The position numbers and the translations under genes were made by a program. From positions 1 through 52,904 of the forward strand of contig CANQRW010000017.1 in the NCBI GenBank assembly GCA_947626365.1: a stretch of DNA of 52,904 bases, given 5' to 3'. Under the pieces are notes generated by a model. The model was not told the DNA's origin. It searched no databases and worked only from the letters and a program-made list of their open reading frames with translations. Positions 34,914 to 47,422 of this stretch are shown here, piece by piece (position 1 is the first letter of the stretch; every line of letters starts with the position of its first letter). Source of the stretch: an uncultured Lachnospiraceae bacterium. Its GTDB lineage: Bacteria; Bacillota; Clostridia; Lachnospirales; Lachnospiraceae.

Positions 34914-35389
34914 TGAAAGATTCAGATCGGAAGGATTCAGTCCCGGAAACCGTATCCATCCGTCCCATGACGGCCGCCGACCTGGAATCTGTATGGCAGC
35001 TGGAAAGGCAGTGCTTTTCCGACCCTTGGTCCATGAAACTGCTGGAAGAGGGATTAAAGGGACCGTATGACCGCTTTTTTGCGGCAGAGTCCGATGGTCA
35101 GATCTGCGGTTACGCGAATCTGAGAATCATTGCCGGGGAAGGCGAGATTGAGCGTATTGCCGTGGACAGCCGGTTCCGCAGGCAGGGCGTCGGCAGGGAA
35201 CTGATGGAGAAGATGGAAGAAGCTGCCAGCCTGGAAGGGGTGGGGGATATTACCCTGGAGGTTCGCGAGAGCAACACGGCGGCCCGGAAACTGTATGAAT
35301 CCTTTGGATTTGCGGAGGAAGGACGGAGAAAAGAGTATTATCGGAATCCCACGGAGGATGGAGTCATCATGTGGCGGCGGAAAGCATGA
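34913..35389 (+). CDS. rimI: Ribosomal protein bS18-alanine N-acetyltransferase
   Basis: 158 aa. GNAT fold: acetyl-CoA loop RRQGVGRE (about residues 83-90, the R/Q-x-x-G-x-G/A motif), LEVRESNTAARKLYESFGF near the C-terminus, typical for RimI. It acetylates the N-terminus of S18 and sits in the tsaE-tsaB-rimI arrangement common in Firmicutes. ATG overlaps the TsaB stop by one base. The first ~15 residues are charged and variable. The operon ends in a terminator (35434-35467). Confidence 0.9.
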   Translation: MKDSDRKDSVPETVSIRPMTAADLESVWQLERQCFSDPWSMKLLEEGLKGPYDRFFAAESDGQICGYANLRIIAGEGEIERIAVDSRFRRQGVGRELMEKMEEAASLEGVGDITLEVRESNTAARKLYESFGFAEEGRRKEYYRNPTEDGVIMWRRKA

Positions 35390-35433
35390 AACATTTACCA
35401 CTTAAAATTCGACAGGAAACGATTTATAATGTA

Positions 35434-35467
35434 AGGGTATCTGTGAGAGACAGGTATCCTTTTCTTT
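35434..35467 (+). terminator. Terminator of the tsaE-tsaB-rimI operon
   Basis: AGGGTATCTGT (35434-35444) pairs with ACAGGTATCCT (35450-35460) including two wobbles, 5 nt loop, followed by TTTTCTTTA. A TATAAT at 35425-35430 just before it and a Spo0A-box core (35408-35414, minus strand) may be incidental. Confidence 0.7.
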
Positions 35468-35607
35468 ATGGCGCGGGCGGAATATGAGGTTTGAGCGGCC
35501 AAGTCCGGCCGCAGCGCGGCGGCTTTGTCGGCCCGTGTCGCGGCATATTAAAGGAAAAGAGGAAATCTGTCTGCGGGAAACAAGGATAAAAGAAAGGTGA
35601 GAGTAAG

Positions 35608-35850
35608 ATGAGGAAGTACACACGCAATGGGGATTTGGAGACGGTAATCTGCAACGGCTGCGGCAAAAAGCTGATTGTAAAGGATGGGATCCTTCGGGAG
35701 GGAGTCCTTCGCCTGGACCACGCCTGGGATTTTTTCTCGGAGAAGGATGGAGAGGTTCACCATATGGATCTGTGCGAGGACTGTTATGATCAGATTGTCC
35801 GCAATCTGCGGATTCCTGTGGAAATCGAGGAAAGCACGGAGCTTCTGTGA
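35608..35850 (+). CDS. Small hypothetical protein with zinc-ribbon-like cysteines
   Basis: 80 aa. Cysteines at residues 12 and 15 (CNGC) and 54 and 57 (CEDC) form a widely split C-x2-C pair that could hold one zinc. An acidic end (IPVEIEESTEL) closes the protein. No family name recognised. It has its own AGAAAGGTGAGAG ribosome binding site and follows the operon terminator, so it is transcribed separately. Two hundred bases upstream are free of genes. It is soluble, with no membrane segment. Confidence 0.7.
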   Translation: MRKYTRNGDLETVICNGCGKKLIVKDGILREGVLRLDHAWDFFSEKDGEVHHMDLCEDCYDQIVRNLRIPVEIEESTELL

Positions 35851-35915
35851 TAGGAATTGTAATAAAAAGCATATTTTTAGTAAGATAAAATAGTGTTCCC
35901 GCCGGAAGTTCCGTG

Positions 35916-36761
35916 TTAAGATAGAGACAGGTTCGAAGAGGAAAACTGTTTGCGGTACTGAAGAGGCGTAAGCTGTTCCCGATCCCTGAAAATCTTGATG
36001 AAATTGTTGACATTGATGTAGCCCACTCTGCAGGCGATCTCCTCAATCGGAAGGTCGGTAGCGGCAAGCAGTTTTTTGGCCTCCGTGACACGAAAGAGGA
36101 GCAGGTATTCTTTGAATGTAATGCCGGTGACATCTTTGAAAGCCAGAGACAGGGCGTGACTGCTGATAAAAGCAGCCTCGGCGGTTTCCTGAATCGTGAG
36201 TTTTCGGTTAAAGTGTTCGCTGATATAGTGCTGGGCGCTCAGCACGGACGAGGCGATTCCGCCAGGCGTCCGGATAGGAAAGCATTCCGGATGAGCCCGA
36301 TACAGGCTGATCAGAATTGCTGTGACCAGTCCGGTGCTGCGGGCAGTAAAGAACTGCTTCTGTGCCTGATATTCCTGCTCCAGCGCTGCGAAACAGGGAA
36401 GCAGAGTCTCATAAACGGAATCCTCCAGGGTGATTACGTGGCAGAAGTCCAGGGGATGCTGGATAAAGATGGAGATCAGCTCGGGCTCCTTTATTCCGGA
36501 CATGATCAGTTCGCTGGATATGGAAGTGACGTATCTGGTGTAGGGAATTTCGTCAATGATGAAGCGGTGGGCTTCCAGGCGGCTGATGAAGATCAGGGAT
36601 CCGGCCGTCAGGGCATAGGTCTTCTGATTGATGATCAGCCGGGCCCTGCCGCCGGTGACGAGAATCATCTGATACTCGAAGTGAGCGGTAGGAGAGACAT
36701 GAGCGGACTCCGCGGTGCCGGAGAAAAAACAGCTGATGGCAGGAATATGAGTGCAGAGCAT
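35916..36761 (-). CDS. AraC family transcriptional regulator
   Basis: 281 aa from ATG 36761, placed by AAGGAG seven bases before; an ATG five codons earlier sits in front of that site. The N-terminal cupin-like ligand domain (about 20-130) is followed by two AraC helix-turn-helix motifs at about 185-280 (LTIQETAEAAFISSHALSLAFKD and IEEIACRVGYINVNNFIKIFRD). It is divergent from the OYE-family gene across 136 bases and probably controls it. A partial dyad CCGGGTAT/ATACCGG (36833-36867) in that gap is a candidate operator. The ligand domain is not of a named class, so the inducer is unknown. Confidence 0.9.
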   Translation of the reverse strand: MLCTHIPAISCFFSGTAESAHVSPTAHFEYQMILVTGGRARLIINQKTYALTAGSLIFISRLEAHRFIIDEIPYTRYVTSISSELIMSGIKEPELISIFIQHPLDFCHVITLEDSVYETLLPCFAALEQEYQAQKQFFTARSTGLVTAILISLYRAHPECFPIRTPGGIASSVLSAQHYISEHFNRKLTIQETAEAAFISSHALSLAFKDVTGITFKEYLLLFRVTEAKKLLAATDLPIEEIACRVGYINVNNFIKIFRDREQLTPLQYRKQFSSSNLSLS

Positions 36762-36897
36762 AGCTTCTCCTTTCATGTAAGAGGCAGGTAAAAAATGCCG
36801 CCATTTTCCTCATGAGAACGTAAGATCAATGACCGGGTATCTGTATTATATACAAAATAAATACCGGAGTCAAATCATAAAGAAAGGCGGGAACACT

Positions 36898-38262
36898 ATG
36901 GTACATGAGAAATTCCATTACAGGAGCGTGGAGGCAATTCAGGCGAAAGCCGCGGAGCTGGGCGTACACATTCCTTTTGGAAAGGATACGTCGGTATTGA
37001 CGCAGCCGCTGAAGGTGGGAAATGTAACGCTGGCGAACCGGATGGGCATTGCGCCCATGGAGGGAGCCGATTCCCTTCCGGACGGTTCCCCGTCGGAGCT
37101 GACTACCCGGCGGTATGTGAGGGAGGCCGTAGGGGAGAGCGCGGTCATCTGGTTTGAGGCCATCGCCATCGTCCCGGAGGGGCGGTCCAGCGCTCATCAG
37201 CTGATGCTGACAGAGGAAAATCTGGAAGCGTACAAAGCATTTACGGCGGCCGTTAAAGAGGCCGGGAGAAAGGCCAATGGATTTGAGCCCTATCTGATCA
37301 TGCAGGCCAATCACAGCGGGAGATATTCCAATCCAGGCGGAAAGCCGGCGCCCATGATAGCGTACCGCCATCCGGAATATGAAAAGCTGCGTCCGGCTGA
37401 TGATTCCTGCATTGTCAGCGATGATTATCTGAAGTCGCTGGAAGAAAAGTTTGGACAGGCGGCCCGTCTGGCCAGGGAAGCGGGATTTGACGCCATCGAT
37501 ATTAAGTCCTGCCACGGATATCTCCTGGCGGAACTGTCATCCGCGTATAACCGGCCGGGACTTTACGGCGGAAGCTACGAGAATCGGACCCGCCTTCTGA
37601 AAAATGGAATTCTTGCGGCAAAAGCATGGGAGAACGATACATTTCAGGTGACTGCCCGAATCGGAATTTTCGACGGTTACGCCTGGCCTTACGGTTTCGG
37701 CGTAAACAGCGGGACGCCCTTTGAAGCCGGCAGGTTCGGCGCCAGGGGCGAGGGAGCGGAGCCGGATCTGACGGAGCCGGTACGGCTGATCGGTGAACTT
37801 CATGACCGGTATGGCCTCGGCATGGTGAACCTGACCATGGGAAATCCCTATGTGACCACCCATGTAACCAGGCCCTTTGACGGCGGGAAATATGTGCCGG
37901 AGGAGCATCCGCTGTATGGAATTGCCCGGATGATCAATGGAATCGGACAGGTGAAAAGGGCGGTGCCGGATATGGTGATTTCAGCTTCCGGACCTTCCTA
38001 TCTGCGCCAGTATTCCGATCTTTTTTCGGTGGGAGCCATTGAGGAAGGACTTTGCGACGCCATGCTGTTCGGACGGATGTCCTTTGCGGATCCGGACTTT
38101 GCGAAACAGATTATCGAGGAAGGCCGCATCGATCCGAAGAAAACCTGCGTCGCCTGCGGCAAGTGCGGCGATCTGATCCGGGCAGGGAAACCCACCGGCT
38201 GTGTGGTTCGGGACTCACAAAACTACCTGAAATATTATAAAGAATATTTGGCTGAAATTTAA
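36898..38262 (+). CDS. Old yellow enzyme-family oxidoreductase with Cys4 motif
   Basis: 454 aa from ATG 36898 (AAAGGCGGG upstream). FMN-binding TIM barrel of the NADH:flavin oxidoreductase/OYE family: LTQPLKVGNVTLANRMGIAPM, QANHSGRYSNPGG, DIKSCHGYLLAELSSAYNRPGLYGGSYENRTRLL. Near the C-terminus C417-x2-C420-x2-C423-x11-C435 resembles the 4Fe-4S site of 2,4-dienoyl-CoA reductase-type members, but the FAD/NAD(P)H domains of those ~650-residue enzymes are missing. It probably reduces a C=C bond, fed by electrons from another protein. It stands at the head of the accessory block and diverges from an AraC regulator. Terminator follows at 38300. Confidence 0.88.
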   Translation: MVHEKFHYRSVEAIQAKAAELGVHIPFGKDTSVLTQPLKVGNVTLANRMGIAPMEGADSLPDGSPSELTTRRYVREAVGESAVIWFEAIAIVPEGRSSAHQLMLTEENLEAYKAFTAAVKEAGRKANGFEPYLIMQANHSGRYSNPGGKPAPMIAYRHPEYEKLRPADDSCIVSDDYLKSLEEKFGQAARLAREAGFDAIDIKSCHGYLLAELSSAYNRPGLYGGSYENRTRLLKNGILAAKAWENDTFQVTARIGIFDGYAWPYGFGVNSGTPFEAGRFGARGEGAEPDLTEPVRLIGELHDRYGLGMVNLTMGNPYVTTHVTRPFDGGKYVPEEHPLYGIARMINGIGQVKRAVPDMVISASGPSYLRQYSDLFSVGAIEEGLCDAMLFGRMSFADPDFAKQIIEEGRIDPKKTCVACGKCGDLIRAGKPTGCVVRDSQNYLKYYKEYLAEI

Positions 38263-38299
38263 ATGCAAAAAATGCATACTGATGAAATCGGATAAAGAG

Positions 38300-38327
38300 C
38301 GGGGCCGCGGCATAGGCCCCGTTTTTT
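38300..38327 (+). terminator. Terminator of the OYE-family gene
   Basis: CGGGGCC (38300-38306) pairs with GGCCCCG (38315-38321), 8 nt loop, followed by TTTTTT. Confidence 0.9.
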
Positions 38328-38451
38328 GTCGCATCGTTTGGATGCCGGACGTTAAAATACAGCGTTTTTCCGCGGCCGTCCCCACTACGGCTATAAAATA
38401 TACATTTCTTGCTATTGGATATAAGATTGTTGTCAATAAACCCGTGTTTTA

Positions 38452-38480
38452 TTTACAAATAAAAATCAAGTAAATATAAT
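38452..38480 (+). promoter_or_regulatory. Promoter of the TAXI-TRAP operon
   Basis: TTTACA (38452-38457), 17 bp spacer, TATAAT (38475-38480). Inverted arms CGTGTTTT (38443-38450) and AAAACACG (38482-38489) flank it and could form an operator. Confidence 0.75.
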
Positions 38481-38537
38481 AAAAACACGATAAAGAGAGA
38501 AGACGCTCTCAATAAAAAGAAAGGTGAGGAAAATACT

Positions 38538-39623
38538 ATGAAAAAGACGATGGCGATGCTTTGTATGGCAGCATTGGCGGTTTCGATGACCGCTTGTGGT
38601 TCAAGCAGCAGTTCTCAGAGCGGACAGACGACGACGGAGGCAGGGACGACAGACGCAGGGACGACAGCCGCAGAGACGCCGGCAGCAGAGACAGCCTCTG
38701 CGGAAGCAGGAGCAGCGGAAGCTCCGGCGACCGATGTGGAACTGCCTAAATTTGTGACAGTGGGGACCGGAGCGACCGGCGCGGCGTTTTATCCCATTGG
38801 CGTTTCCATGGCGGAGATTCTGACCAATAACCTGGGAGTGGAGGCTTCCGCACAGGTAACAGGAGGCGCTTTGGAAAATCTGCAGCTGGTGCAGGAGGGA
38901 ACCATCGACATGGGAATCACCATGGGCAACTCCGCGCAGGAGGCGTATGAAGGGACAGGAGATTATGAAGGGACTCCCTATGAGAATGTAAACGCCCTGT
39001 TCGGAGGTCTGTCCAAGGGATACTTCCAGGTGGTAGTTCTGGACGACAGCCCCATTCAGACGATGAACGATCTGGTAGGCAAAAAGGTCTGCATGGGCCC
39101 GGCAGGAAACGGAGCCATCAGTGTGGCTCAGACTATCTGGAATGCCTGCGGTTTCTCCATTGAGGACGTAAATGCTACTTATCTTTCCTATGACGATGGA
39201 ATCAGTCAGCTGACCGACGGCAACTGTGATGCCGTAGTGGTGCAGGCAGCGGCCCCTTCCTCCGCTATTCAGGAACTGGCGGCTTCCGGCAAGGCATATC
39301 GCCTGATTCCGGTTGACGAAGCTGTGGCCCAGACTTTGTGTGACGAGTACGCCTATTTTGGTTACGGAACCCTGGCAGCCTCCATGTACGACAATAATCC
39401 TTCTGATACCGATACCATGTATATTACTAATATGGTGATCGTACGTGCCGATCTGCCTGAAGATGTAGTTTATGAGATGACAAAAGCCCTCTTTGAGAAC
39501 GTGGATACCATCAAAAATTCTCACCCGGCGGCTGCCGGAGTTTCTCTGGAAGGCGCAGTGAGAACATCCATCCCCCTGCATCCGGGCGCGGATCGGTACT
39601 TCACGGAAGTGGGAGCGAAATAA
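38538..39623 (+). CDS. TAXI-type TRAP transporter solute-binding lipoprotein
   Basis: 361 aa. A lipoprotein signal peptide with the lipobox MTAC and lipidated C20 is followed by a Ser/Thr/Ala/Glu-rich linker to about residue 68, then the TAXI domain (VTVGTGATGAAFYPIGVSMAEIL and EGTIDMGITMGNSAQEAYEG). TAXI proteins bind carboxylates such as glutamate or other organic acids outside the cell. AAAGGTGAGG precedes the ATG. Its permease follows after 82 bases that contain a small hairpin (CCGCC/GGCGG, 39628-39642), which may limit permease expression. Substrate cannot be read from sequence. Confidence 0.92.
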   Translation: MKKTMAMLCMAALAVSMTACGSSSSSQSGQTTTEAGTTDAGTTAAETPAAETASAEAGAAEAPATDVELPKFVTVGTGATGAAFYPIGVSMAEILTNNLGVEASAQVTGGALENLQLVQEGTIDMGITMGNSAQEAYEGTGDYEGTPYENVNALFGGLSKGYFQVVVLDDSPIQTMNDLVGKKVCMGPAGNGAISVAQTIWNACGFSIEDVNATYLSYDDGISQLTDGNCDAVVVQAAAPSSAIQELAASGKAYRLIPVDEAVAQTLCDEYAYFGYGTLAASMYDNNPSDTDTMYITNMVIVRADLPEDVVYEMTKALFENVDTIKNSHPAAAGVSLEGAVRTSIPLHPGADRYFTEVGAK

Positions 39624-39705
39624 GTATCCGCCCGCAAGGCGGGGCAGATCAATGATACAGGCGTATGAAAGGAATACAGCGAAGCTGTGAGGAAGGGAGA
39701 GGCAT

Positions 39706-41583
39706 ATGAAAGAACTGGATGATAAGATTCGTGTGAATCTGTGCAGGGCGCTTTATATTATAACGGCGCTGATCTATCTCTATACAGCCGGTTTCGGCTC
39801 TTTCTCGGAAATGACCCAGAGAGCTCTGCTGGTAACCATCTGCGGATTCACCATCTTTTTGCGGAAGCCGCTGAAATGGAAAAAGGAGCAGACGGCCTTT
39901 ACCCGCATTTTGGACTGGGCGCTGGCGCTGGGTTTTACGGCGGCGGGAATCTACATTATGGCAATCTGGAGCGACCGGATCAGCAAGGTGGGAGCGGTTC
40001 CCATGCCGGACGTGATCATGGCGACGGTTATGATCGTACTGCTGCTGATCGCTACCTATAAAGCCACGGGCTGGCCGCTGGTGATTACCTGCATCGTGTT
40101 TCTAATCTACACGGCGGCAGGACCATATCTTCCGTCCATTCTTGCCCACAGAGGGGAAACCTGGGCCAGGACAGCCAACTTCATGTATGTTTCCACAGGA
40201 AGCATATTCGGCGTGCCGGCAGGAATTGCCGCCACCTACATTATCAGCTTTGTGATCTTCGGCTCTTTCCTGGAACGGTTCGGCGCGGGCCAGTGGTTTG
40301 TGGACCTGGCTTACGCGGGAACCGGAAGATTCCGCGGCGGTCCGGCCAAGACGAGCATTGCCTCCAGCGCCCTTATGGGTATGATCTCCGGTTCGCCGGC
40401 GGCTAATGTGGTGACGACAGGCGCATTTACCATTCCCCTGATGAAGAGGACCGGATATAAGGACTATGAAGCGGGAGCCGTGGAGGCTGTGGCCTCTACA
40501 GGAGGCATGTTTACGCCTCCCATCATGGGAGCGGCGGCCTTTATGATGGCGGAGTTTCTGGGAATCCCCTACATAGAAGTGGCAAAAGCCGCCATTGTTC
40601 CGGCCTGCCTGTACTATCTGTCCCTGATGCTGGTGGTGGATTCCATCGCGGTGAAAAACGGACTGGTCGGCCTGCCCAAGGACCAGCTTCCCAGTGTGAA
40701 GAAAATCATGCTGGAGAGAGGACAGCTGGGACTGCCCATCATATTCGTGATCGCGGTGATCCTGATGGGATGGAGTCCCATGAAATCAGCGTTTTACGGA
40801 ACCATTGCCGTTCTGCTGGTGGCCTTTGTCAAGAAAGAGACCCGGCCTACCCTGTCCTCCTTCCTAGATGCGCTGGAAAGCGGAGTCAAGGGTGTATCCA
40901 ACATCGTGATCTCCTGCGCGGCGGCGGGAATCATCGTGGGCGTCATCAGTATGACCGGTCTGGCCACCAAGCTCAGCTATACCCTGGTCAGCATTTCCGG
41001 AGGCAATATCTTTATAGCTGCCGTTCTGACCGCGCTGATCACCATTGTACTGGGCTGCGGCATGCCTCCCACACCTACGTATGTCATTTTGGCTACGGTG
41101 CTGGTAAGGCCCTTGACGGAAATGGGAGCGACAGCCCTGTCTGCCCATATGTTTATCTTCCTCTTTGCGTGTATCGGCGCCCTGACGCCTCCCGTGGCGA
41201 TCACCGCCTACACGGCCGCGGCCATAGCCAAGTCCGATCCCAATAAAACCGGCTTTAGGGCGTTCCGCATGGGACTGGTGGCGTATATCATCCCCTTTAT
41301 CTTCCTGCTGAGTCCGGCTATCCTGCTGATGGGCGGCGCGGCGGAAGTGGTGATAGCGGTTCTGACAGCGACTCTTGGGATTTTCTGTCTGACTGCGGCG
41401 GTAGAGGGATATATGTTCCGCTGCTGGGGGAGTGTGACGAGAATTCTCATGATGGCGGCAGCCCTTCTGATGCTGATACCGGGAACTTTTACTGATGCGG
41501 CAGGTGTCGTCTGCGCCGTCCTGGCATTCCTTTTAGAAAAACTGATTTTCAAGACAAGCCTGGGAGGTGCCGCTCATGCCTAG
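39706..41583 (+). CDS. TRAP transporter fused permease (4TM/12TM)
   Basis: 625 aa. Four N-terminal DctQ-type helices (about 15-165) are fused to a DctM-type domain of about 12 helices (about 165-620), the normal layout for TAXI partners. Conserved stretches include GAGQWFVDLAYAGTGRFRGGPAKTSIASSALMGMISGSP, MFTPPIMGAAAFMM and GCGMPPTPTYVILATV. It imports the ligand of the binding protein with Na+ or H+. GAAGGGAGAGG precedes ATG. Its last codons overlap the next gene by eight bases, so transporter and amidohydrolase are coupled. Confidence 0.93.
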   Translation: MKELDDKIRVNLCRALYIITALIYLYTAGFGSFSEMTQRALLVTICGFTIFLRKPLKWKKEQTAFTRILDWALALGFTAAGIYIMAIWSDRISKVGAVPMPDVIMATVMIVLLLIATYKATGWPLVITCIVFLIYTAAGPYLPSILAHRGETWARTANFMYVSTGSIFGVPAGIAATYIISFVIFGSFLERFGAGQWFVDLAYAGTGRFRGGPAKTSIASSALMGMISGSPAANVVTTGAFTIPLMKRTGYKDYEAGAVEAVASTGGMFTPPIMGAAAFMMAEFLGIPYIEVAKAAIVPACLYYLSLMLVVDSIAVKNGLVGLPKDQLPSVKKIMLERGQLGLPIIFVIAVILMGWSPMKSAFYGTIAVLLVAFVKKETRPTLSSFLDALESGVKGVSNIVISCAAAGIIVGVISMTGLATKLSYTLVSISGGNIFIAAVLTALITIVLGCGMPPTPTYVILATVLVRPLTEMGATALSAHMFIFLFACIGALTPPVAITAYTAAAIAKSDPNKTGFRAFRMGLVAYIIPFIFLLSPAILLMGGAAEVVIAVLTATLGIFCLTAAVEGYMFRCWGSVTRILMMAAALLMLIPGTFTDAAGVVCAVLAFLLEKLIFKTSLGGAAHA

Positions 41584-42592
41584 AATCATCGATATGTTTA
41601 ACCACTATCTTCCGCCGGAGTTTTATGACAAGATCACAGCCCTCGGCGGAAACGCCCACATGATGAACCGGGCGCGGAAAATGCGGGCCATGGCCGATCT
41701 GGATTACCGGCTGAAGAAGATGGAGGAGTTTGAGGGCTATCAGCAGATTCCCTGTATTGTCAGCCCGAATGTGGAACAGCTGGTTCCGGCGGAGCACACG
41801 GCAGAACTGGCCCGGTTTGCCAATGAGACTTTTTATAATATATGTCAGAAATATCCGGACAAATTTCCAAGCTTCGTGGCTGTGCTGCCTCTGGATGACA
41901 TGGACAAGGCATGCCGGGAGGCGGAGTACGCCATTACCCAGTTAGGTGCCGCCGGCGGTCAGATCTTTACCAACCAGGACGGCCGTCCGGTAGATGGGGA
42001 AGATTTCTATCAGCTTTACAGGACGCTGAACGATCTGGACAGCGTATTGTGGATTCATCCCCAGAGAACGGCGAAGCAGCCCTATTATCGGAATGAAGAG
42101 ATGGAGAGATATGAACTCTGGTGGACCATGATGTGGCCGGTTGAGACGACAATGGCCGCCTCCCGGCTGGTGTATTCCGGCATCTTCCAGCGCTGTCCCC
42201 GATTGAGTATCGTGCTGCACCACGCCGGGGCCATGCTCCCCATGCTGGAGGGCCGTCTGGAAAACGGGCTGAAGCTTTATTCCACCAGAACGGCGCCGGA
42301 ACAGCAGTATCTGGTGGAAAGTCCCATCAGGGATAAGGTACAGATTGATGAATTCCGGAAATTTTACGCGGACTGCGCTACCTTCGGCAGCAGGGCAGCC
42401 ATCGAGTGCGCCGTCAACCTGTTTGGAATATCCAACATGGTATTTGCCAGCGATATGCCCTTTGATCCGGAGGATGGGTTCGGGTATGTGCGCCGCGCCA
42501 TTCGGGATGTGGAAGGCCTTTCCGCATCCGCGGAAGAGAAGAACGCGATTTACTGCGGCAATGCCCTTAGGATTATGAAAAAAATAAAGTAG
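41576..42592 (+). CDS. Amidohydrolase/ACMSD-fold enzyme lacking the first metal His
   Basis: 338 aa from ATG 41576; GGGAGGTG lies six bases upstream, and an in-frame GTG at 41567 overlaps that site. TIM-barrel amidohydrolase_2 of the aminocarboxymuconate semialdehyde / resorcylate decarboxylase group. Later metal/active sites are present: LWIHPQRT, VLHHAGAMLPM, ASDMPFDPEDG. The N-terminal H-x-H motif reads IIDMFNHYLP here, so the first His is Phe. It may use one metal differently or rely on a different acid. Likely a decarboxylase or hydrolase acting on the imported compound. Translationally coupled to the TRAP permease. Confidence 0.82.
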   Translation: MPRIIDMFNHYLPPEFYDKITALGGNAHMMNRARKMRAMADLDYRLKKMEEFEGYQQIPCIVSPNVEQLVPAEHTAELARFANETFYNICQKYPDKFPSFVAVLPLDDMDKACREAEYAITQLGAAGGQIFTNQDGRPVDGEDFYQLYRTLNDLDSVLWIHPQRTAKQPYYRNEEMERYELWWTMMWPVETTMAASRLVYSGIFQRCPRLSIVLHHAGAMLPMLEGRLENGLKLYSTRTAPEQQYLVESPIRDKVQIDEFRKFYADCATFGSRAAIECAVNLFGISNMVFASDMPFDPEDGFGYVRRAIRDVEGLSASAEEKNAIYCGNALRIMKKIK

Positions 42593-42609
42593 CCGGTTAT
42601 ATGGAGGGA

Positions 42610-43461
42610 TTATTTCCCCTGGTTGCGATACTGCAGCGGGGAGATGCCCTCCATCGACTTAAAGCTGCGTATAAAATGAGAGGTGCTGTTGAAGCCTACG
42701 GAGGAGCCTATTTTCTGGATTTCTTCCGAAGAGCGGAGAAGGAGATCCTTGGCTTTGGATAGGCGGGCCGTGATGACATACTCTTTATATCCGTATCCGG
42801 TAATTTCACGAAAACTGTGGCTTAAATGGTATTTGCTGATGAAAAATTTATTGGCGACCGTTTCCAGCTGCAGATCTTCATCCAGATGGGATTCGATGTA
42901 ATTCTGGATATTGTAAATAAGTCCCTGGCCGTTGGCCTGTCGGGTGCCGGGAAAAGCATTGGGCTGGGTCCTGTACATATAGATCAGGATATCCGTCAGT
43001 TTGGATAGAATCAGCTGTTCCCAGTAAGGACGCTGCAGCTGGTATTCATGGACCATAATATCCAGAAGCCGGGTATAGCGGACGGTTTCCTGAGGGGTAC
43101 AGATGTACTGATGGCAGAATCCGGGAATCCTCTGTTTGAAGATGGACAACAGAAGAGGGTCATGAACCATACTTGCCAGAATTTCATTGGAAAAACGGGC
43201 AGTGTACCGGTCATAACCTTCGCTGTGAGAGAGGATGGAATGGTTTTCCAGGTTGTTGATCACCAGAATATGTCCCGGCTCCAGGTGATACACGGTTCCG
43301 CTGATATTGAAATCAGCGCATCCCCCTACATTGAGGATCAGTTCGCACTGGTTGTGGAAATGGGGCGTTTTTTTCTGGACGTCCGGATGCATATAGGCCT
43401 GGACTTCATCCTTGCGGTGAAAAATCCGGACCGAAGGGTTTGACATGTCGATTTCGGCCAT
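42610..43461 (-). CDS. AraC family transcriptional regulator, second copy
   Basis: 283 aa. Cupin-type N-terminal domain (HFHNQCELILNVGGCADFNISGTVY) and two helix-turn-helix motifs at the end (LETVANKFFISKYHLSHSFREITGYG and IQKIGSSVGFNSTSHFIRSFKS). It shares its layout with the regulator at 35916-36761, so the two are likely ancient paralogues. AGAGGTGACTT precedes ATG. It is divergent from the SDR/flavoprotein pair and sits between them and the transporter genes, so it probably controls one or both sides. Ligand unknown. Confidence 0.9.
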   Translation of the reverse strand: MAEIDMSNPSVRIFHRKDEVQAYMHPDVQKKTPHFHNQCELILNVGGCADFNISGTVYHLEPGHILVINNLENHSILSHSEGYDRYTARFSNEILASMVHDPLLLSIFKQRIPGFCHQYICTPQETVRYTRLLDIMVHEYQLQRPYWEQLILSKLTDILIYMYRTQPNAFPGTRQANGQGLIYNIQNYIESHLDEDLQLETVANKFFISKYHLSHSFREITGYGYKEYVITARLSKAKDLLLRSSEEIQKIGSSVGFNSTSHFIRSFKSMEGISPLQYRNQGK

Positions 43462-43582
43462 AAGTCACCTCTTTGAATCGCAATGAAAAGGGAAACAGGA
43501 ACGCGGCAAAGCAGTATTAAGCCGTATATAACAGATTCAGTATATCACAGCAGATTTTGGAAAATCAAGAGGAGGAAAGCAA

Positions 43583-44350
43583 ATGAAAAAGACGGCGATT
43601 GTGACCGGCGGAAGCCGGGGAATCGGTTACGCCATTGCGAAGCGTCTGGGAGAAGACGGATTCAATGTAGTGATCATGGATATGAACCGGCAGGAGGATT
43701 ATCAGGAGAATCTTGACGGGCTGGCGAAAATGGGAGTAGAATATCTCTATATTCAGGGAAATATCTGCAGCGCGGAGGACCGGCAGAAGCTGGTGGATCA
43801 GACGGTAGAACGCTTTGGCGGAATCCATGTGCTGGTGAACAATGCCGGGGTCGCGCCGAAGGTGCGGGCGGATCTTTTGGAGATGACGGAAGAAAGCTTT
43901 GACCGTGTCGTCGGCATCAATACAAAGGGAAATATGTTCGTAACCCAGGCGGTGGTCCGCCAGATGCTCCGGCAGCCGGCAGAGGGCAGAAAGAGAGGTT
44001 CCATCATCAATATCTCGTCCTGTTCCGCCGTGGTTTCTTCTACCGGGCGCGGTGAATACTGTGTGTCTAAGGCAGGCGTTTCCATGCTGACGACTCTTTA
44101 TGCCGACCGTCTGGCCAGGGAGGGGATTCTGGTCAATGAGGTGCGTCCGGGCGTGATCGCCACTGATATGACCAGTACGGTTCAGGAAAAGTACGATAAA
44201 ATGTTTGCGGATGGAGTGTTTCCCATCGCCCGCTGGGGGACCCCGGAGGATATCGCTAACGCGGTTTCGGCCTTGGCCGGAGATTCCTTCTTATATACAA
44301 CGGGGAACTATATCGATGTAGACGGAGGCTTTCATATCCAGAGATTATAG
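43583..44350 (+). CDS. Short-chain dehydrogenase/reductase of the accessory block
   Basis: 255 aa. NAD(P) motif TGGSRGIGYAIAK, NNAGVAP, Ser in INISSCSAVVSST and YCVSKAG with catalytic Tyr and Lys; ends TGNYIDVDGGFHI. Residues 37-60 after the second strand are charged (NRQEDYQEN), where co-enzyme selectivity is set; no clear NADP-type Arg is seen. It would reduce a ketone or oxidise an alcohol. GAGGAGGAAAG lies before ATG. The flavoprotein gene follows 12 bases later, so they are one operon. Confidence 0.9.
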   Translation: MKKTAIVTGGSRGIGYAIAKRLGEDGFNVVIMDMNRQEDYQENLDGLAKMGVEYLYIQGNICSAEDRQKLVDQTVERFGGIHVLVNNAGVAPKVRADLLEMTEESFDRVVGINTKGNMFVTQAVVRQMLRQPAEGRKRGSIINISSCSAVVSSTGRGEYCVSKAGVSMLTTLYADRLAREGILVNEVRPGVIATDMTSTVQEKYDKMFADGVFPIARWGTPEDIANAVSALAGDSFLYTTGNYIDVDGGFHIQRL

Positions 44351-44362
44351 AGAGGTGCGGTC

Positions 44363-46321
44363 ATGAGAGAAGGACGAATCAGGGTGGGAGATGTCTCCCT
44401 GAGAGAATATCAGCTGAATACGGTGGTGGTTGGGACAGGCGCCGCAGGCTACAACTGCGCTGACCGTCTGTATTCCTACGGACAGAAGGATATTGCCATA
44501 GTCACCGAGGGAATCAACCGGGGAACCAGCCGCAATACCGGAAGCGACAAGCAGACCTACTATAAACTGACGCTGTCGGGAGGCGATCCGGACAGCGTGC
44601 GGGAGATGGCCCAGACTCTTTTTGAAGGACAGTGTGTGGACGGAGACATCGCCCTCTGTGAGGCGGCTTTGTCGGTTCAGGGGTTCCTTCATCTGGTGGA
44701 GCTGGGAGTTCCCTTTCCCAGAAACCGGTGGGGCGAGTATATCGGTTATAAGACGGACCATGATCCCAGACGGAGGGCCACCAGCGTGGGCCCCTACACC
44801 AGCCGCAGGATGACCGAGTGCCTGCAGAAGTCGGTGGAATCAAAGGATATTCCGGTGTTTGACGGGTTCCTGGCCGTTGCTATCTTAAGCGACGGGGAAA
44901 CCTGCGGAGGCCTTCTCTGCCTGGACTGCAAAAACGCGGAGAATCCGGAAGACCGGTATGTGGCTTTCAAATGTAAAAACATAGTGTGGGCCACAGGCGG
45001 CCCGGCCGGAATGTACCATGACAGCGTCTATCCCCTGGGCCATCTGGGGGCTACGGGAACCGCCTTCGCGGCAGGTGCCAGAGGCAAGAATCTGACGGAA
45101 TGGCAGTATGGGCTGGCGAGCGTGCGGCCCCGGTGGAACATGTCGGGAACCTATATGCAGGTGCTTCCCCGTTTTATCTCCACAGAAAGCGACGGCTCTG
45201 ATGAGAGAGAATTTCTGAATGATTTCTTTGACGACCGTGGGCAGCTTCTGACCAATGTGTTCCTGAAGGGCTACCAATGGCCTTTTGATGTGCGGAAAGT
45301 GGAAAAGGGCAGTTCCATTATAGATATCCTGGTCTACCTGGAACAGAAGAAGGGGCGGAAGGTGTATCTGGATTTCCGGACGAATCCCTGCTGCGGAGAA
45401 TTGGATTTCGGCCTTCTCTCGGAAGAGGCCTATGACTACTTGAACCGGGCCGGCGCCTGCTTCGGAACGCCTATTGAACGGCTGTGCCATATGAATCAGC
45501 CGGCAGTGGATTTTTATCTGGATAAAGGTGTGGATCTGTCGAAAGAGCCTTTGGAGATCGCACTTTGCGCCCAGCATAATAACGGCGGTCTGGCCATCGA
45601 CGCCTGGTGGCAGACCAATGTGAAGGGCCTGTTTGCCGCGGGAGAGGCGGCGGCCAGTCATGGCGTCTATCGTCCCGGCGGCAGCGCACTGAACGCGGGG
45701 CAGGTAGGTTCCGCCCGGGCGGCTCAGTATATCGCGGCCCGGGGACAGGGAGAAGCCGACGAGGCCGTCTATGGAAGCAGTCTGGAGAAAGCCCTGCAGG
45801 AGTGCAGACAGCTGGAAGCACCCGCGGAGGCGAACGCCCCCTATAATATTCAGCGGCTGTGGGACGAGGCAGCGATGGACATGAGTACTTTCGGCGCGGC
45901 AATCCGAAGCCGCCAGGGGATTGAGGGACTTCTTCAGAGAGTGAGACGGAGAAGAGCGGAGTTTCCCGAGGCCGTCAGAATCGTTTCCTCATCACAGCTT
46001 CCTCAGCTGTTCCGCCTGCGCGATATGCTTCTGTGCCAGCAGGTGTATCTGGAGGCAATGCTTAACTACCTGACAGAAGGAGGCGACAGCCGGGGAAGCG
46101 CATTGTACACCAATCCGGAAGGGATTCATCCTCACAGCCAGCTGCCGGAAGAGTTTACCTACCGCCTGGAACGGGAAGGCGGCAGCGGCCGGATTCAGGA
46201 GGTTTTGTGGAACGGACAGGAATGTGAGTTTTTCTGGCGCAGCCCCAGGCCGATTCCGAAGGATGACGATTTCTTTGAGAATGTCTGGAGAGAGTACCGC
46301 CAGACCGGTAACATATATTAA
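44363..46321 (+). CDS. FAD-dependent oxidoreductase, FrdA/aspartate oxidase-like
   Basis: 652 aa. An FAD site at about residues 18-45 (TVVVGTGAAGYNCADRLYSYG) is preceded by a short non-family N-terminus. NTGSDKQTYYKL, a large capping domain, and the C-terminal FAD contact AAGEAAASHGVYRPGGSALNAGQVGSARAAQYIA follow. This group reduces C=C bonds or oxidises C-H bonds; the usual partners are fumarate reductase-like or quinone-linked proteins. No cytochrome or heme motif is present, and no Tat signal, so it is soluble and cytosolic. Cotranscribed with the SDR. A terminator follows at 46372. Confidence 0.87.
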   Translation: MREGRIRVGDVSLREYQLNTVVVGTGAAGYNCADRLYSYGQKDIAIVTEGINRGTSRNTGSDKQTYYKLTLSGGDPDSVREMAQTLFEGQCVDGDIALCEAALSVQGFLHLVELGVPFPRNRWGEYIGYKTDHDPRRRATSVGPYTSRRMTECLQKSVESKDIPVFDGFLAVAILSDGETCGGLLCLDCKNAENPEDRYVAFKCKNIVWATGGPAGMYHDSVYPLGHLGATGTAFAAGARGKNLTEWQYGLASVRPRWNMSGTYMQVLPRFISTESDGSDEREFLNDFFDDRGQLLTNVFLKGYQWPFDVRKVEKGSSIIDILVYLEQKKGRKVYLDFRTNPCCGELDFGLLSEEAYDYLNRAGACFGTPIERLCHMNQPAVDFYLDKGVDLSKEPLEIALCAQHNNGGLAIDAWWQTNVKGLFAAGEAAASHGVYRPGGSALNAGQVGSARAAQYIAARGQGEADEAVYGSSLEKALQECRQLEAPAEANAPYNIQRLWDEAAMDMSTFGAAIRSRQGIEGLLQRVRRRRAEFPEAVRIVSSSQLPQLFRLRDMLLCQQVYLEAMLNYLTEGGDSRGSALYTNPEGIHPHSQLPEEFTYRLEREGGSGRIQEVLWNGQECEFFWRSPRPIPKDDDFFENVWREYRQTGNIY

Positions 46322-46371
46322 ATCGATCAATCTTACATTTATGGAACGGACAGGTATATGGATATCAGAGG

Positions 46372-46401
46372 GAGGCTTGCTGTATCGGCAGGCCTCTTTT
46401 T
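46372..46401 (+). terminator. Terminator of the SDR-flavoprotein operon
   Basis: GAGGCTTGC (46372-46380) pairs with GCAGGCCTC (46388-46396), one wobble, 7 nt loop, followed by five Ts. Confidence 0.85.
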
Positions 46402-46510
46402 GACGGTTTATCCTTTATAAACCGTGTTTTTGTCCCGAAAATCTCAGTACCGCTATGGAAATCCGCCGATTCATGTGATATAGTTATGAAAAAAGGAAAG
46501 AGAGATTTTT

Positions 46511-47422
46511 ATGCTTGATGTGTGTCTTCTGGGAACCGGAGGGATGATGCCGCTGCCGTACCGGTGGCTTACTTCCCTGATGGCCCGCTGCGATGGCAGT
46601 AATCTGCTGATCGACTGCGGGGAGGGAACCCAGATCGCTTTAAAGGAAAAGGGCTGGAGTTCCAAGCCCATTGATGTTATCTGTTTTACCCACTATCATG
46701 CCGATCACTGCAGTGGTCTTCCGGGACTGCTTCTGACCATGGGCAACGCGGAGCGGACGGAGCCTCTTCTTCTGGCGGGTCCTAAGGGGCTGAAACGGGT
46801 AGTGGAGGCTTTGCGGACCATAGCGCCGGAGCTGCCCTTTGAACTGCGGTTTCTGGAGTTTACTGAGCCGAGGGAGCATTTTCATATCGGCCCCTATGAG
46901 ATTGATGCGTTCCGGGTGAATCACAATGTAGTCTGCTACGGTTACTCCATCTCCATTCCCAGGGCAGGGCGTTTCGACGTGGAGAGGGCAAAGGCCCAGA
47001 ACGTGCCTATGCCTGCCTGGCGTTTTCTGCAGAAGGGTGAAAATGTAGTCATAGACGGCATCACTTATACGCCGGATATGGTTCTTGGCCCGCCCAGACG
47101 GGGACTGAAGGTGACTTACTGTACGGATACCCGTCCGGTTCCGGTTATCGCCGAGTATGCCCAGAGTGCGGATCTGTTCATCTGCGAGGGCATGTACGGG
47201 GAGGACGGCAAGGAGTCGAAAGCGCGGGATTACAAACATATGACCATGTATGAGGCAGCGAAGCTGGCAAAGCAGGCTCAGCCCGGGGAAATGTGGCTGA
47301 CTCATTACAGCCCGTCTCTGACCCGGCCGGAGGAGTTCATTGACAAGGTTCGGGAAATATTTCCGAAGACAGTGGCGGCCAGAGACGGACGTTCCGTGGA
47401 GCTGGGATTTTCGGAGGAATAG
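46511..47422 (+). CDS. rnz: Ribonuclease Z
   Basis: 303 aa. Metallo-beta-lactamase fold with the zinc motif THYHADHCSGLPGLL, the early loop LLGTGGMMPLP, and CDGSNLLIDCGEGTQIAL. Later metal ligands: TYCTDTRPV and DYKHMTMYEAAKLA. It processes the 3' end of tRNA precursors; both tRNA genes in this window lack an encoded CCA, so its activity is needed. The protein begins MLDVCLLGTGG, with AAAGGAAAGAG upstream. tsaD follows after 66 bases, linking tRNA maturation genes. Confidence 0.93.
   Translation: MLDVCLLGTGGMMPLPYRWLTSLMARCDGSNLLIDCGEGTQIALKEKGWSSKPIDVICFTHYHADHCSGLPGLLLTMGNAERTEPLLLAGPKGLKRVVEALRTIAPELPFELRFLEFTEPREHFHIGPYEIDAFRVNHNVVCYGYSISIPRAGRFDVERAKAQNVPMPAWRFLQKGENVVIDGITYTPDMVLGPPRRGLKVTYCTDTRPVPVIAEYAQSADLFICEGMYGEDGKESKARDYKHMTMYEAAKLAKQAQPGEMWLTHYSPSLTRPEEFIDKVREIFPKTVAARDGRSVELGFSEE

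Follow-up and report, generated by a model that had tools for sequence, protein, structure and literature searches.

A linked TAXI-TRAP, OYE, SDR and FrdA-like gene set in Lachnospiraceae as a candidate catabolic system for a polyhydroxylated organic acid

The contig of an uncultured Lachnospiraceae bacterium analyzed here (the window, 52,904 nucleotides) carries an island of eight genes that are linked beyond chance, three of which (OYE, SDR, and FrdA) represent a conserved core joined to varying uptake and entry genes across bacteria. Judging from sequence, we estimate at about 45%, slightly below even odds, the probability that the island encodes an undescribed catabolic system for a polyhydroxylated organic acid, including the stepwise scheme given below. 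An AraC-family regulator (AraC1, 35916..36776, reverse strand; Pfam HTH_18 and AraC_binding) is divergent from a single-domain OYE-type flavoprotein (36898..38262, forward strand; Oxidored_FMN), which is followed on the forward strand by a TAXI-family TRAP solute-binding lipoprotein (38538..39623; TIGR02122 above cut-off), a fused TRAP permease (39706..41583; TIGR02123 above cut-off), and an amidohydrolase-2 fold enzyme of the ACMSD/decarboxylase-hydratase superfamily (41567..42592; Amidohydro_2). A second AraC-family regulator (AraC2, 42610..43461, reverse strand; Pfam HTH_18 and AraC_binding) is divergent from a short-chain dehydrogenase/reductase (SDR, 43583..44350, forward strand; adh_short_C2, with PRK12745 [NF009386] above cut-off) and a stand-alone FrdA-like FAD protein of 652 aa (44363..46321, forward strand; FAD_binding_2). 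All eight genes are open reading frames (ORFs), and the gene calls and names of the preliminary description were borne out by the ORF check and by Pfam and NCBIfam profile searches with all eight proteins. No RNA family reached its gathering threshold at 35300-46600. A genome of the same genus (G114) is syntenic with the window up to 35848, where the synteny ends; an empty insertion site was sought on the contig fetched from that genome and was not demonstrated, a 303-aa gene being unmatched and tsaD giving a partial 31% match only.

The preliminary description had considered these genes as one linked uptake and reductive set and had proposed searching for it in gut Lachnospiraceae, where the set was found to be conserved. 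All eight genes are present at 89-99% identity on another Lachnospiraceae contig (L033), and the set is re-ordered in locus L060 (genome G019), in which TAXI-TRAP-amidohydrolase, AraC2, and OYE-SDR-FrdA are contiguous. In 34 OYE loci from public genomes, an SDR gene was located at most 3 kb from OYE in 25 and an FrdA gene at most 5 kb away in 21; the nine loci without such a nearby SDR include two contig ends and L033, where SDR is found at 5.3 kb. The isolate name of L033 suggests rabbit, and cultured carriers include Lacrimispora and Clostridium strains. FrdA homologues were detected in 8 and OYE homologues (1e-40) in 9 of 200 family genomes, with both in 7 (hypergeometric probability, 1e-10) and single carriers limited to G015 and G107 for OYE and G132 for FrdA; in 398 phylum genomes, the corresponding counts were 21 and 30, with both in 16 against 1.6 expected (hypergeometric probability, 2e-16), and because of kinship among genomes, both probabilities overstate independence. 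This co-occurrence and the proximity within loci thus identify OYE-SDR-FrdA as a conserved core whose entry genes can be exchanged. Amidohydrolase homologues (1e-40) occur in 4 of the 200 family genomes, all of which carry OYE and FrdA, and three loci (L061, L063, and L047) combine such a homologue with an adjacent OYE-SDR-FrdA trio and an Asp-Al_Ex permease. Observations that count against our preferred explanation include the nine public OYE loci without a nearby SDR, the 5 of 21 phylum genomes in which FrdA occurs and OYE was not detected at 1e-60, and G567, which was the sole further genome of the phylum to match the amidohydrolase at that threshold and was on neither the OYE nor the FrdA list. 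TAXI-TRAP homologues were restricted to L033 and L060 among 45 searched loci. The TAXI-TRAP link recurs in the remote locus L110 (27%/37% identity), along with a long OYE, ADH, IlvD, cupin, and FrdA, and a further TAXI-TRAP in G506 (45%/55% identity) is flanked on one side by genes resembling ADH, LacI, kinase, and aldolase genes (by eye) and on the other by a second-type FrdA and OYE.

The OYE-type flavoprotein, whose start codon is the ATG at 36898, is 453 aa long and matches Oxidored_FMN with 93 bits (cut-off, 27), its sole Pfam match at an E value of 0.001, and no NAD/FAD (coenzyme) domain was found in it by this search. Its C-terminal motif Cx2Cx2Cx11C contains four Fe-S-type cysteines, which would be consistent with a predicted 4Fe-4S cluster. 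Cysteines C416, C419, C422, and C434 are invariant in an alignment of 22 rows, as are K202 and H205, which align with the histidine pair of YqjM. The rows of this alignment and of those made for FrdA (19 rows) and the amidohydrolase (6 rows) were selected for spread, leaving out, among others, the FrdA of L067 (one internal TGA) and that of L033; later clustering counted 47 loci with OYE, 49 with FrdA, and 7 with the amidohydrolase. The OYE domain is common to the bile-acid BaiCD, bilirubin reductase (BilR), and mycofactocin OYE families, but the island protein scores far under their curated NCBIfam cut-offs (64-72 versus 425-825 bits).

A parallel with equol formation had also been put forward. 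According to the accessible text of two reports, the equol enzymes DZNR, DHDR, and THDR belong to the OYE, SDR, and FrdA-like classes (PMC4381290, PMC9164157), i.e., the three classes present in the island, and DZNRs comprise OYE, 4Fe-4S, and coenzyme-binding domains (PMC9164157). Compared with this domain description of DZNR, the island OYE possesses the FMN domain and the 4Fe-4S cysteine motif but lacks the coenzyme domain, and its context differs as well: it adjoins an acid importer, and its relatives stand near sugar-acid genes. Membership in an equol/flavonoid pathway was rejected since the coenzyme domain is missing from OYE, and the idea was kept as an alternative. Beyond the enzyme classes, the parallel goes unsupported; the FrdA resemblance is at the superfamily level and is common to any complex-II-fold flavoprotein.

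The best, though weak, NCBIfam matches of the FrdA-like protein were the fumarate reductase and aspartate oxidase families, and it remained under the cut-off for all 23 families among the matches listed (best score, 90 versus 718). Its predicted structure (pLDDT 85) resembles complex II flavoproteins, with 13-19% identity to the structural matches listed. In alignment with aspartate oxidase, H405 and R437 fall on an active-site His and Arg, respectively, and no position in the protein could be assigned to the catalytic arginine of FrdA. While the fold and the aligned His and Arg are common to FrdA and L-aspartate oxidase NadB, the island protein differs from both by its low identity, its scores below curated cut-offs, its stand-alone nature, and a 16-residue segment of its own, GTSRNTGSDKQTYYKL, which is invariant in the 19 aligned rows and is not kept in remoter FrdA-like copies, e.g., those of L105 and L110. 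The iron-sulfur and membrane partner subunits of fumarate reductase and succinate dehydrogenase were not found among the eight island genes. By family score and by partner subunits, the protein falls outside the fumarate reductase/succinate dehydrogenase flavoproteins.

The carboxylate importer and decarboxylase-like enzyme of the preliminary description were confirmed as an acid-type importer and a decarboxylase-superfamily protein. The island encodes both the binding protein (TIGR02122, 260 bits versus a cut-off of 84) and the fused permease (TIGR02123, 611 bits versus 321) of a TAXI-TRAP system, and all seven solved-structure matches of the binding protein are TAXI-type or are named immunogenic protein or GluR0 ligand-binding core. 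The third protein has the fold and family assignment of the amidohydrolase-2 decarboxylases (ACMSD class), with His and Asp residues conserved across the 6 aligned rows; its closest characterized relatives are 5-carboxyvanillate, resorcylate, and ACMSD-type decarboxylases, which act on aromatic or muconate acids. Amidohydrolase-2 decarboxylases carry an HxH or ExH motif. The island enzyme, for which a structure was predicted as for FrdA, shares its fold with ACMSD, the hydroxybenzoate decarboxylases, and 3ij6, whereas it has F11/H13 at this motif, a Phe replacing the first residue.

Regarding regulation, 15 of the 34 public loci have a divergent AraC1 homologue no more than 1.5 kb from OYE, and AraC2 stands divergent from OYE-SDR-FrdA in L060. 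A 22-bp predicted operator located 5′ of TAXI (38394..38415) is identical to L060 at 21 of 22 bases, a score attained in 0 of 60 shuffles (best shuffle, 18), and a sigma-70-like promoter, TTTACA-17-TATAAT (38452..38480, forward strand), was found 5′ of the same gene by consensus scan (11/12 matches). The element of the AraC2/SDR gap (43525..43546), also present in the AraC2/OYE gap of L060, is weak (17/22 bases, attained in 1 of 60 shuffles). A terminator-like hairpin (38300..38321) was predicted in the OYE-TAXI gap by consensus scan alone, a scan that returned 12 terminator-like and 14 promoter-like sites in the region versus shuffle means of 9.9 and 7.8, respectively. Eight same-genome comparisons gave no operator shared by the regions 5′ of OYE, TAXI, and SDR (the best was equalled by 3 of 60 shuffles); a single operator common to these promoters was rejected since no comparison was clear of shuffles, which counts against the claim of co-regulation.

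Named neighbors of OYE/FrdA homologues were mostly sugar and sugar-acid genes (KDPG aldolase, KDG-type kinase, IlvD, Gfo/Idh, and sugar ABC) in a non-random sample of 51 distinct proteins, picked for family searches as recurrent or striking among ORFs called by simple scripts that are error-prone in GC-rich loci, e.g., L046 and L049. Two remote TAXI-TRAP relatives likewise have such genes in their vicinity. In L104, FrdA is directly followed by KDPG aldolase and PfkB kinase genes, as it is, by clustering, in L097, and L123 combines KDPG aldolase and a KDG-type kinase with OYE, SDR, and an FrdA of a second type, as well as IlvD-like and ADH-like genes (by eye). IlvD, ADH, TIM barrel, and LacI genes accompany OYE, SDR, and FrdA in L052, L065, and L093 and accompany OYE alone in L039; the fetched part of L092 has this arrangement with all three core genes and without IlvD. 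For one ADH, the top NCBIfam match was scyllo-inosose dehydrogenase, which did not reach its cut-off and scored no better than threonine dehydrogenase. By eye, gene names further included pectin (L101), sialic-acid (L068), kinase and aldolase (L132), and DctPQM (L094, L109, and L123) functions, as well as GMC oxidoreductases (L139 and L140). The sugar-acid reading is taken over from relatives, since the Pfam search identified none of the eight genes in the window as encoding a KDG kinase, an aldolase, IlvD, or Gfo; a KDG kinase and a KDPG aldolase share a cluster in L104 and L123, and not in the window.

Other substrates could be considered. It is possible, if rather doubtful, that a hydroxylated aromatic acid is imported and decarboxylated by the amidohydrolase and that its ring is reduced by OYE, SDR, and FrdA. 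A phenolic or plant-derived substrate had been suggested in the preliminary description, and a phenolic or hydroxybenzoate compound is conceivable because the amidohydrolase relatives include hydroxybenzoate decarboxylases and because one remote locus (L122) holds a UbiD (aromatic-acid) decarboxylase with OYE and an FrdA-type gene, TAXI-TRAP being further along; both observations favor a phenolic acid, and an OYE without an NAD domain might fit a low-potential donor. However, the named neighbors in the chosen sample are mostly sugar, sugar-acid, or CoA genes, OYE lacks a DZNR-like coenzyme domain, and the BaiCD, BilR, and mycofactocin profiles score far below their cut-offs. Catabolism of C3-oxidized glycosides seems unlikely: Gfo/Idh or other oxidases would yield 3-keto sugars, a TIM-barrel elimination would give a 2-hydroxy-3-keto-glycal whose enone is reduced by OYE, and the window would hold a carboxylated variant. 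One Gfo/Idh cluster is indeed found in 19 of 66 clustered loci, TIM barrels are recurrent, and an elimination product of this type is described for O- and C-glycosides in the accessible text of one report (PMC10628242), but Gfo and TIM-barrel genes are absent from the island in the window, L033, and L060, and the TRAP and CoA-transferase versions would be left unexplained.

Reductive catabolism of the hydroaromatic acids quinate or shikimate appears improbable. The acid importers and the ADH matching scyllo-inosose dehydrogenase below cut-off would agree with it, as would the CoA transferase and enoyl-CoA hydratase genes accompanying FrdA in L094 (by eye and family search) and in E. coli, but the sugar kinase and aldolase neighbors do not fit. 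The L123 cluster also includes a shikimate dehydrogenase gene, which is the sole copy found in its genome and thus probably biosynthetic, so that this support was dropped. We regard it as similarly improbable that the island joins chance neighbors, TAXI-TRAP-amidohydrolase forming one acid system and SDR-FrdA and OYE another. Separate regulators, the hairpin between OYE and TAXI, and the confinement of TAXI-TRAP homologues to two of the searched loci would be expected in that case; against it stand the re-ordered set in L060, the set in L033, the amidohydrolase with the trio in L061, L063, and L047, and the renewed TAXI-TRAP linkage in L110 and G506.

Under our preferred explanation, TAXI-TRAP would import a polyhydroxylated carboxylate of the sugar-acid or cyclitol type, which the amidohydrolase-fold enzyme might decarboxylate or hydrate. 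SDR would interconvert ketone and alcohol, OYE would reduce an activated C=C on FMN, and the FrdA-like FAD protein would reduce (or oxidize) a bond beside a carboxylate that H405 and R437 hold in place. An external electron donor is proposed for OYE because no NAD domain was found, electrons possibly arriving via the predicted [4Fe-4S] cluster from ferredoxin or a partner flavoprotein. The products would enter central metabolism, for which relatives would use the KDG/KDPG route or CoA thioesters, and the two AraC regulators would induce two or three transcripts. None of the titles and abstract openings among the matches listed, in a literature mostly excluding subscription journals, describes this gene set, in agreement with the earlier remark that no known pathway has exactly this composition. 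As a whole, the earlier interpretation is partly supported.

A related arrangement exists in the E. coli ytfB-rplI operon, which encodes an SDR (37% identity), a TIM barrel, an enoyl-CoA hydratase, a CoA transferase, an FrdA (36% identity), and TRAP components, and at least 80% of which is found at one place in 1441 of 5426 complete E. coli genomes, about a quarter. It has SDR, the FrdA-like protein, and a TRAP importer in common with the island but differs by separate small and large TRAP permeases, no annotated TAXI, the lack of OYE, and the additional TIM barrel, enoyl-CoA hydratase, and CoA transferase; its annotation is generic (3-ketoacyl-ACP reductase, FAD-dependent oxidoreductase, and TRAP transporter). 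As a tentative and rather speculative extension, OYE-SDR-FrdA might be a general anaerobic deoxygenation core that uses sugar acids or cyclitols as electron sinks by the oxidize-eliminate-reduce logic of bile acids and equol, with interchangeable importers and entry enzymes and a reduced SDR-FrdA-TRAP form in roughly one-fourth of E. coli. If true, gut Lachnospiraceae, Gemmiger/Subdoligranulum, spirochaete bins, other Firmicutes, and many E. coli would share an unassigned catabolic branch, its enzymes going by labels like 3-ketoacyl-ACP reductase or FAD-dependent oxidoreductase. The E. coli version opens the module to direct genetic testing, and one solved substrate would aid the annotation of many operons together and could point to a dietary or host acid contested among gut bacteria.

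The island occupies positions 35916 to 46321 and comprises, in order, AraC1 (minus strand), OYE, the TAXI binding protein, a fused TRAP permease, an amidohydrolase-fold enzyme, AraC2 (minus strand), SDR, and the FrdA-like flavoprotein. Each of the gene classes named in the preliminary description was confirmed by family searches. The start of the amidohydrolase-fold gene overlaps the end of the permease gene by 17 bases. With flank names read by eye, tsaE-tsaB-rimI lies on one side of the island, and a single 303-aa gene followed by tsaD on the other. Synteny between the window and the same-genus genome G114 ends at 35848, consistent with a putative island junction at that point.

The set had been described as linked, and this observation holds: all eight genes are found in L033, a contig of a Lachnospiraceae MAG for which the isolate name, Lapin, points to rabbit, in the same order as in the window and with 89 to 99% identity, and a reordered set is found in L060 (genome G019), where TAXI-TRAP-amidohydrolase, a divergent AraC2, and OYE-SDR-FrdA form one run. 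Among 34 public OYE loci, which by record title belong to Lachnospiraceae, other Clostridia, Gemmiger, and spirochaete bins, 25 have SDR no more than 3 kb from OYE in the same orientation, and 21 have FrdA no more than 5 kb away; L033 itself falls outside both distance limits because the importer genes intervene. When at least 3 kb was available on both sides of OYE (n = 27), SDR was present in 21 loci, FrdA in 18, and both in 18. In the family set (200 genomes), FrdA was detected in 8, OYE in 9 (1e-40), and both in 7, and all four genomes with the amidohydrolase also carried OYE and FrdA. In the phylum set (398 genomes, shared handles suggesting that the OYE and FrdA counts refer to one common set), FrdA was detected in 21, OYE in 30, and both in 16, against 1.6 from the product of the frequencies. 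These 16 genomes carry the two genes on one contig within approximately 15 kb in 8 cases and on separate contigs in the other 8, and the genes thus tend to go together even where linkage is not seen. By contrast, OYE was not found at the phylum-search threshold in 5 of the 21 FrdA genomes. Likewise, G132 encodes a FrdA 69% identical to that of the window, but OYE is absent from its entry in the 200-genome family list, and neither OYE nor SDR was detected in the 20 kb surrounding this orphan FrdA (L066, 11241 to 13226). The amidohydrolase was found in only 2 of the 398 phylum genomes, the second of which (G567) is in neither the OYE nor the FrdA list. Overall, the linkage is real, and the set constitutes a conserved functional module.

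As for regulation, a 22-bp element located 5′ of a good TAXI promoter match is kept at 21 of 22 positions in L060 (0 of 60 shuffles), and a weaker element is common to the AraC2 gaps (1 of 60 shuffles). No element clearly common to OYE, TAXI, and SDR was found that would indicate coregulation.

OYE contains a single recognized domain and four cysteines, spaced Cx2Cx2Cx11C and unchanged across 22 aligned rows; Lys202 and His205 align with the two histidines of the YqjM pair. The searches revealed no coenzyme domain, hence its electron donor is presumably external; the proposed analogy with equol-type (iso)flavonoid reduction received no support from this or the other features that could be tested. 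OYE homologues also occur within open frames of approximately 880 to 900 aa in L115 (9469 to 12177) and L116 (6742 to 9375), possibly as fusions with a further domain. In L059 (10001 to 14048, from a record of Lacrimispora xylanisolvens), the matches to OYE, SDR, and FrdA are each split into at least two pieces, reflecting a broken copy or sequencing errors, and in L068 an OYE-SDR pair is followed by genes resembling, by eye, a sialic-acid cluster (transporter, epimerase, kinase, lyase).

The SDR score exceeds the PRK12745 model cutoff. The predicted structure of the FrdA-like protein (pLDDT 85) resembles those of complex II flavoproteins and aspartate oxidase, with 13 to 19% sequence identity, and no Fe-S or membrane subunit is encoded among the eight genes. 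Since its His405 and Arg437 align with one His and one Arg of aspartate oxidase that we take to be substrate-binding, the alignment suggests a carboxylate beside the reacting bond of the substrate. All 19 aligned rows share an unchanged stretch of 16 residues, GTSRNTGSDKQTYYKL, which remoter copies do not keep. A second FrdA-type protein (28 to 34% identical) is encoded near OYE in eight other Firmicutes loci (L120 to L124 and L126 to L128), together with ADH-like genes and, in part of these loci, with MtaA-like URO-D genes; OYE is thus found paired again, here with a different FrdA subfamily. Rhizobium plasmids L139 and L140 carry a FrdA-like gene (34 to 35% identical), with GMC oxidoreductases read by eye in both and Gfo/Idh, sugar kinase, and aldolase genes among its annotated neighbors in L140.

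A search of plasmid records with the FrdA protein led to an E. coli operon between ytfB and rplI (L138, 4077 to 13860; also L142), consisting of TetR, SDR, TIM barrel, enoyl-CoA hydratase, CoA transferase, FrdA-like, small and large TRAP permease, and binding protein genes, all annotated generically. Its SDR and FrdA are 37% and 36% identical to those of the window, and 1,441 of 5,426 complete E. coli genomes carry at least 80% of the 9,784-base query at one place; no literature on this operon was among the matches listed. Because the operon, unlike the island, lacks OYE, the SDR-FrdA-TRAP theme extends more widely than the OYE-SDR-FrdA trio.

Regarding the substrate, gene context in relatives was examined in 66 loci and 20 further OYE regions, with 51 neighbor proteins, a chosen rather than random sample, submitted to family searches. 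Partners identified in this way included Gfo/Idh/MocA oxidoreductases (one cluster in 19 of the 66 loci), IlvD-type dehydratase, Zn-alcohol dehydrogenases, xylose-isomerase-like TIM barrels, KduI/IolB and cupin proteins, KDPG aldolase, PfkB/KDG-type kinase, a heparinase II/III protein, MtaA-like URO-D proteins, and permeases of the sugar (BPD_transp_1) and branched-chain (BPD_transp_2) ABC, Asp-Al_Ex, and purine-cytosine types. Beyond the close relatives, the TAXI-TRAP link recurs in L110 (27% and 37% identity), with a long OYE and with ADH, IlvD, cupin, and FrdA genes, and in G506 (45% and 55%), where it is flanked on one side by genes resembling ADH, LacI, kinase, and aldolase genes and on the opposite side by FrdA and OYE genes of the second type. 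Judged from these families and recurring contexts, polyhydroxylated acids would be the likely substrates. However, L122 encodes a UbiD decarboxylase, and the amidohydrolase has characterized relatives whose substrates are aromatic or muconate acids: below its best match, 3ij6 (titled uncharacterized), come ACMSD and the isoorotate, carboxyvanillate, and resorcylate decarboxylases, with LigY and LigJ lower. Because Phe11 takes the place of the His or Glu found in decarboxylases, calling the enzyme a decarboxylase is a guess.

The nature of the substrate, the direction in which FrdA works, and the electron donor of OYE are inferences; the island is best read as a module for the catabolism of a polyhydroxylated organic acid, in which TAXI-TRAP and the amidohydrolase would form the entry step of the window's lineage and OYE-SDR-FrdA would be the shared core.
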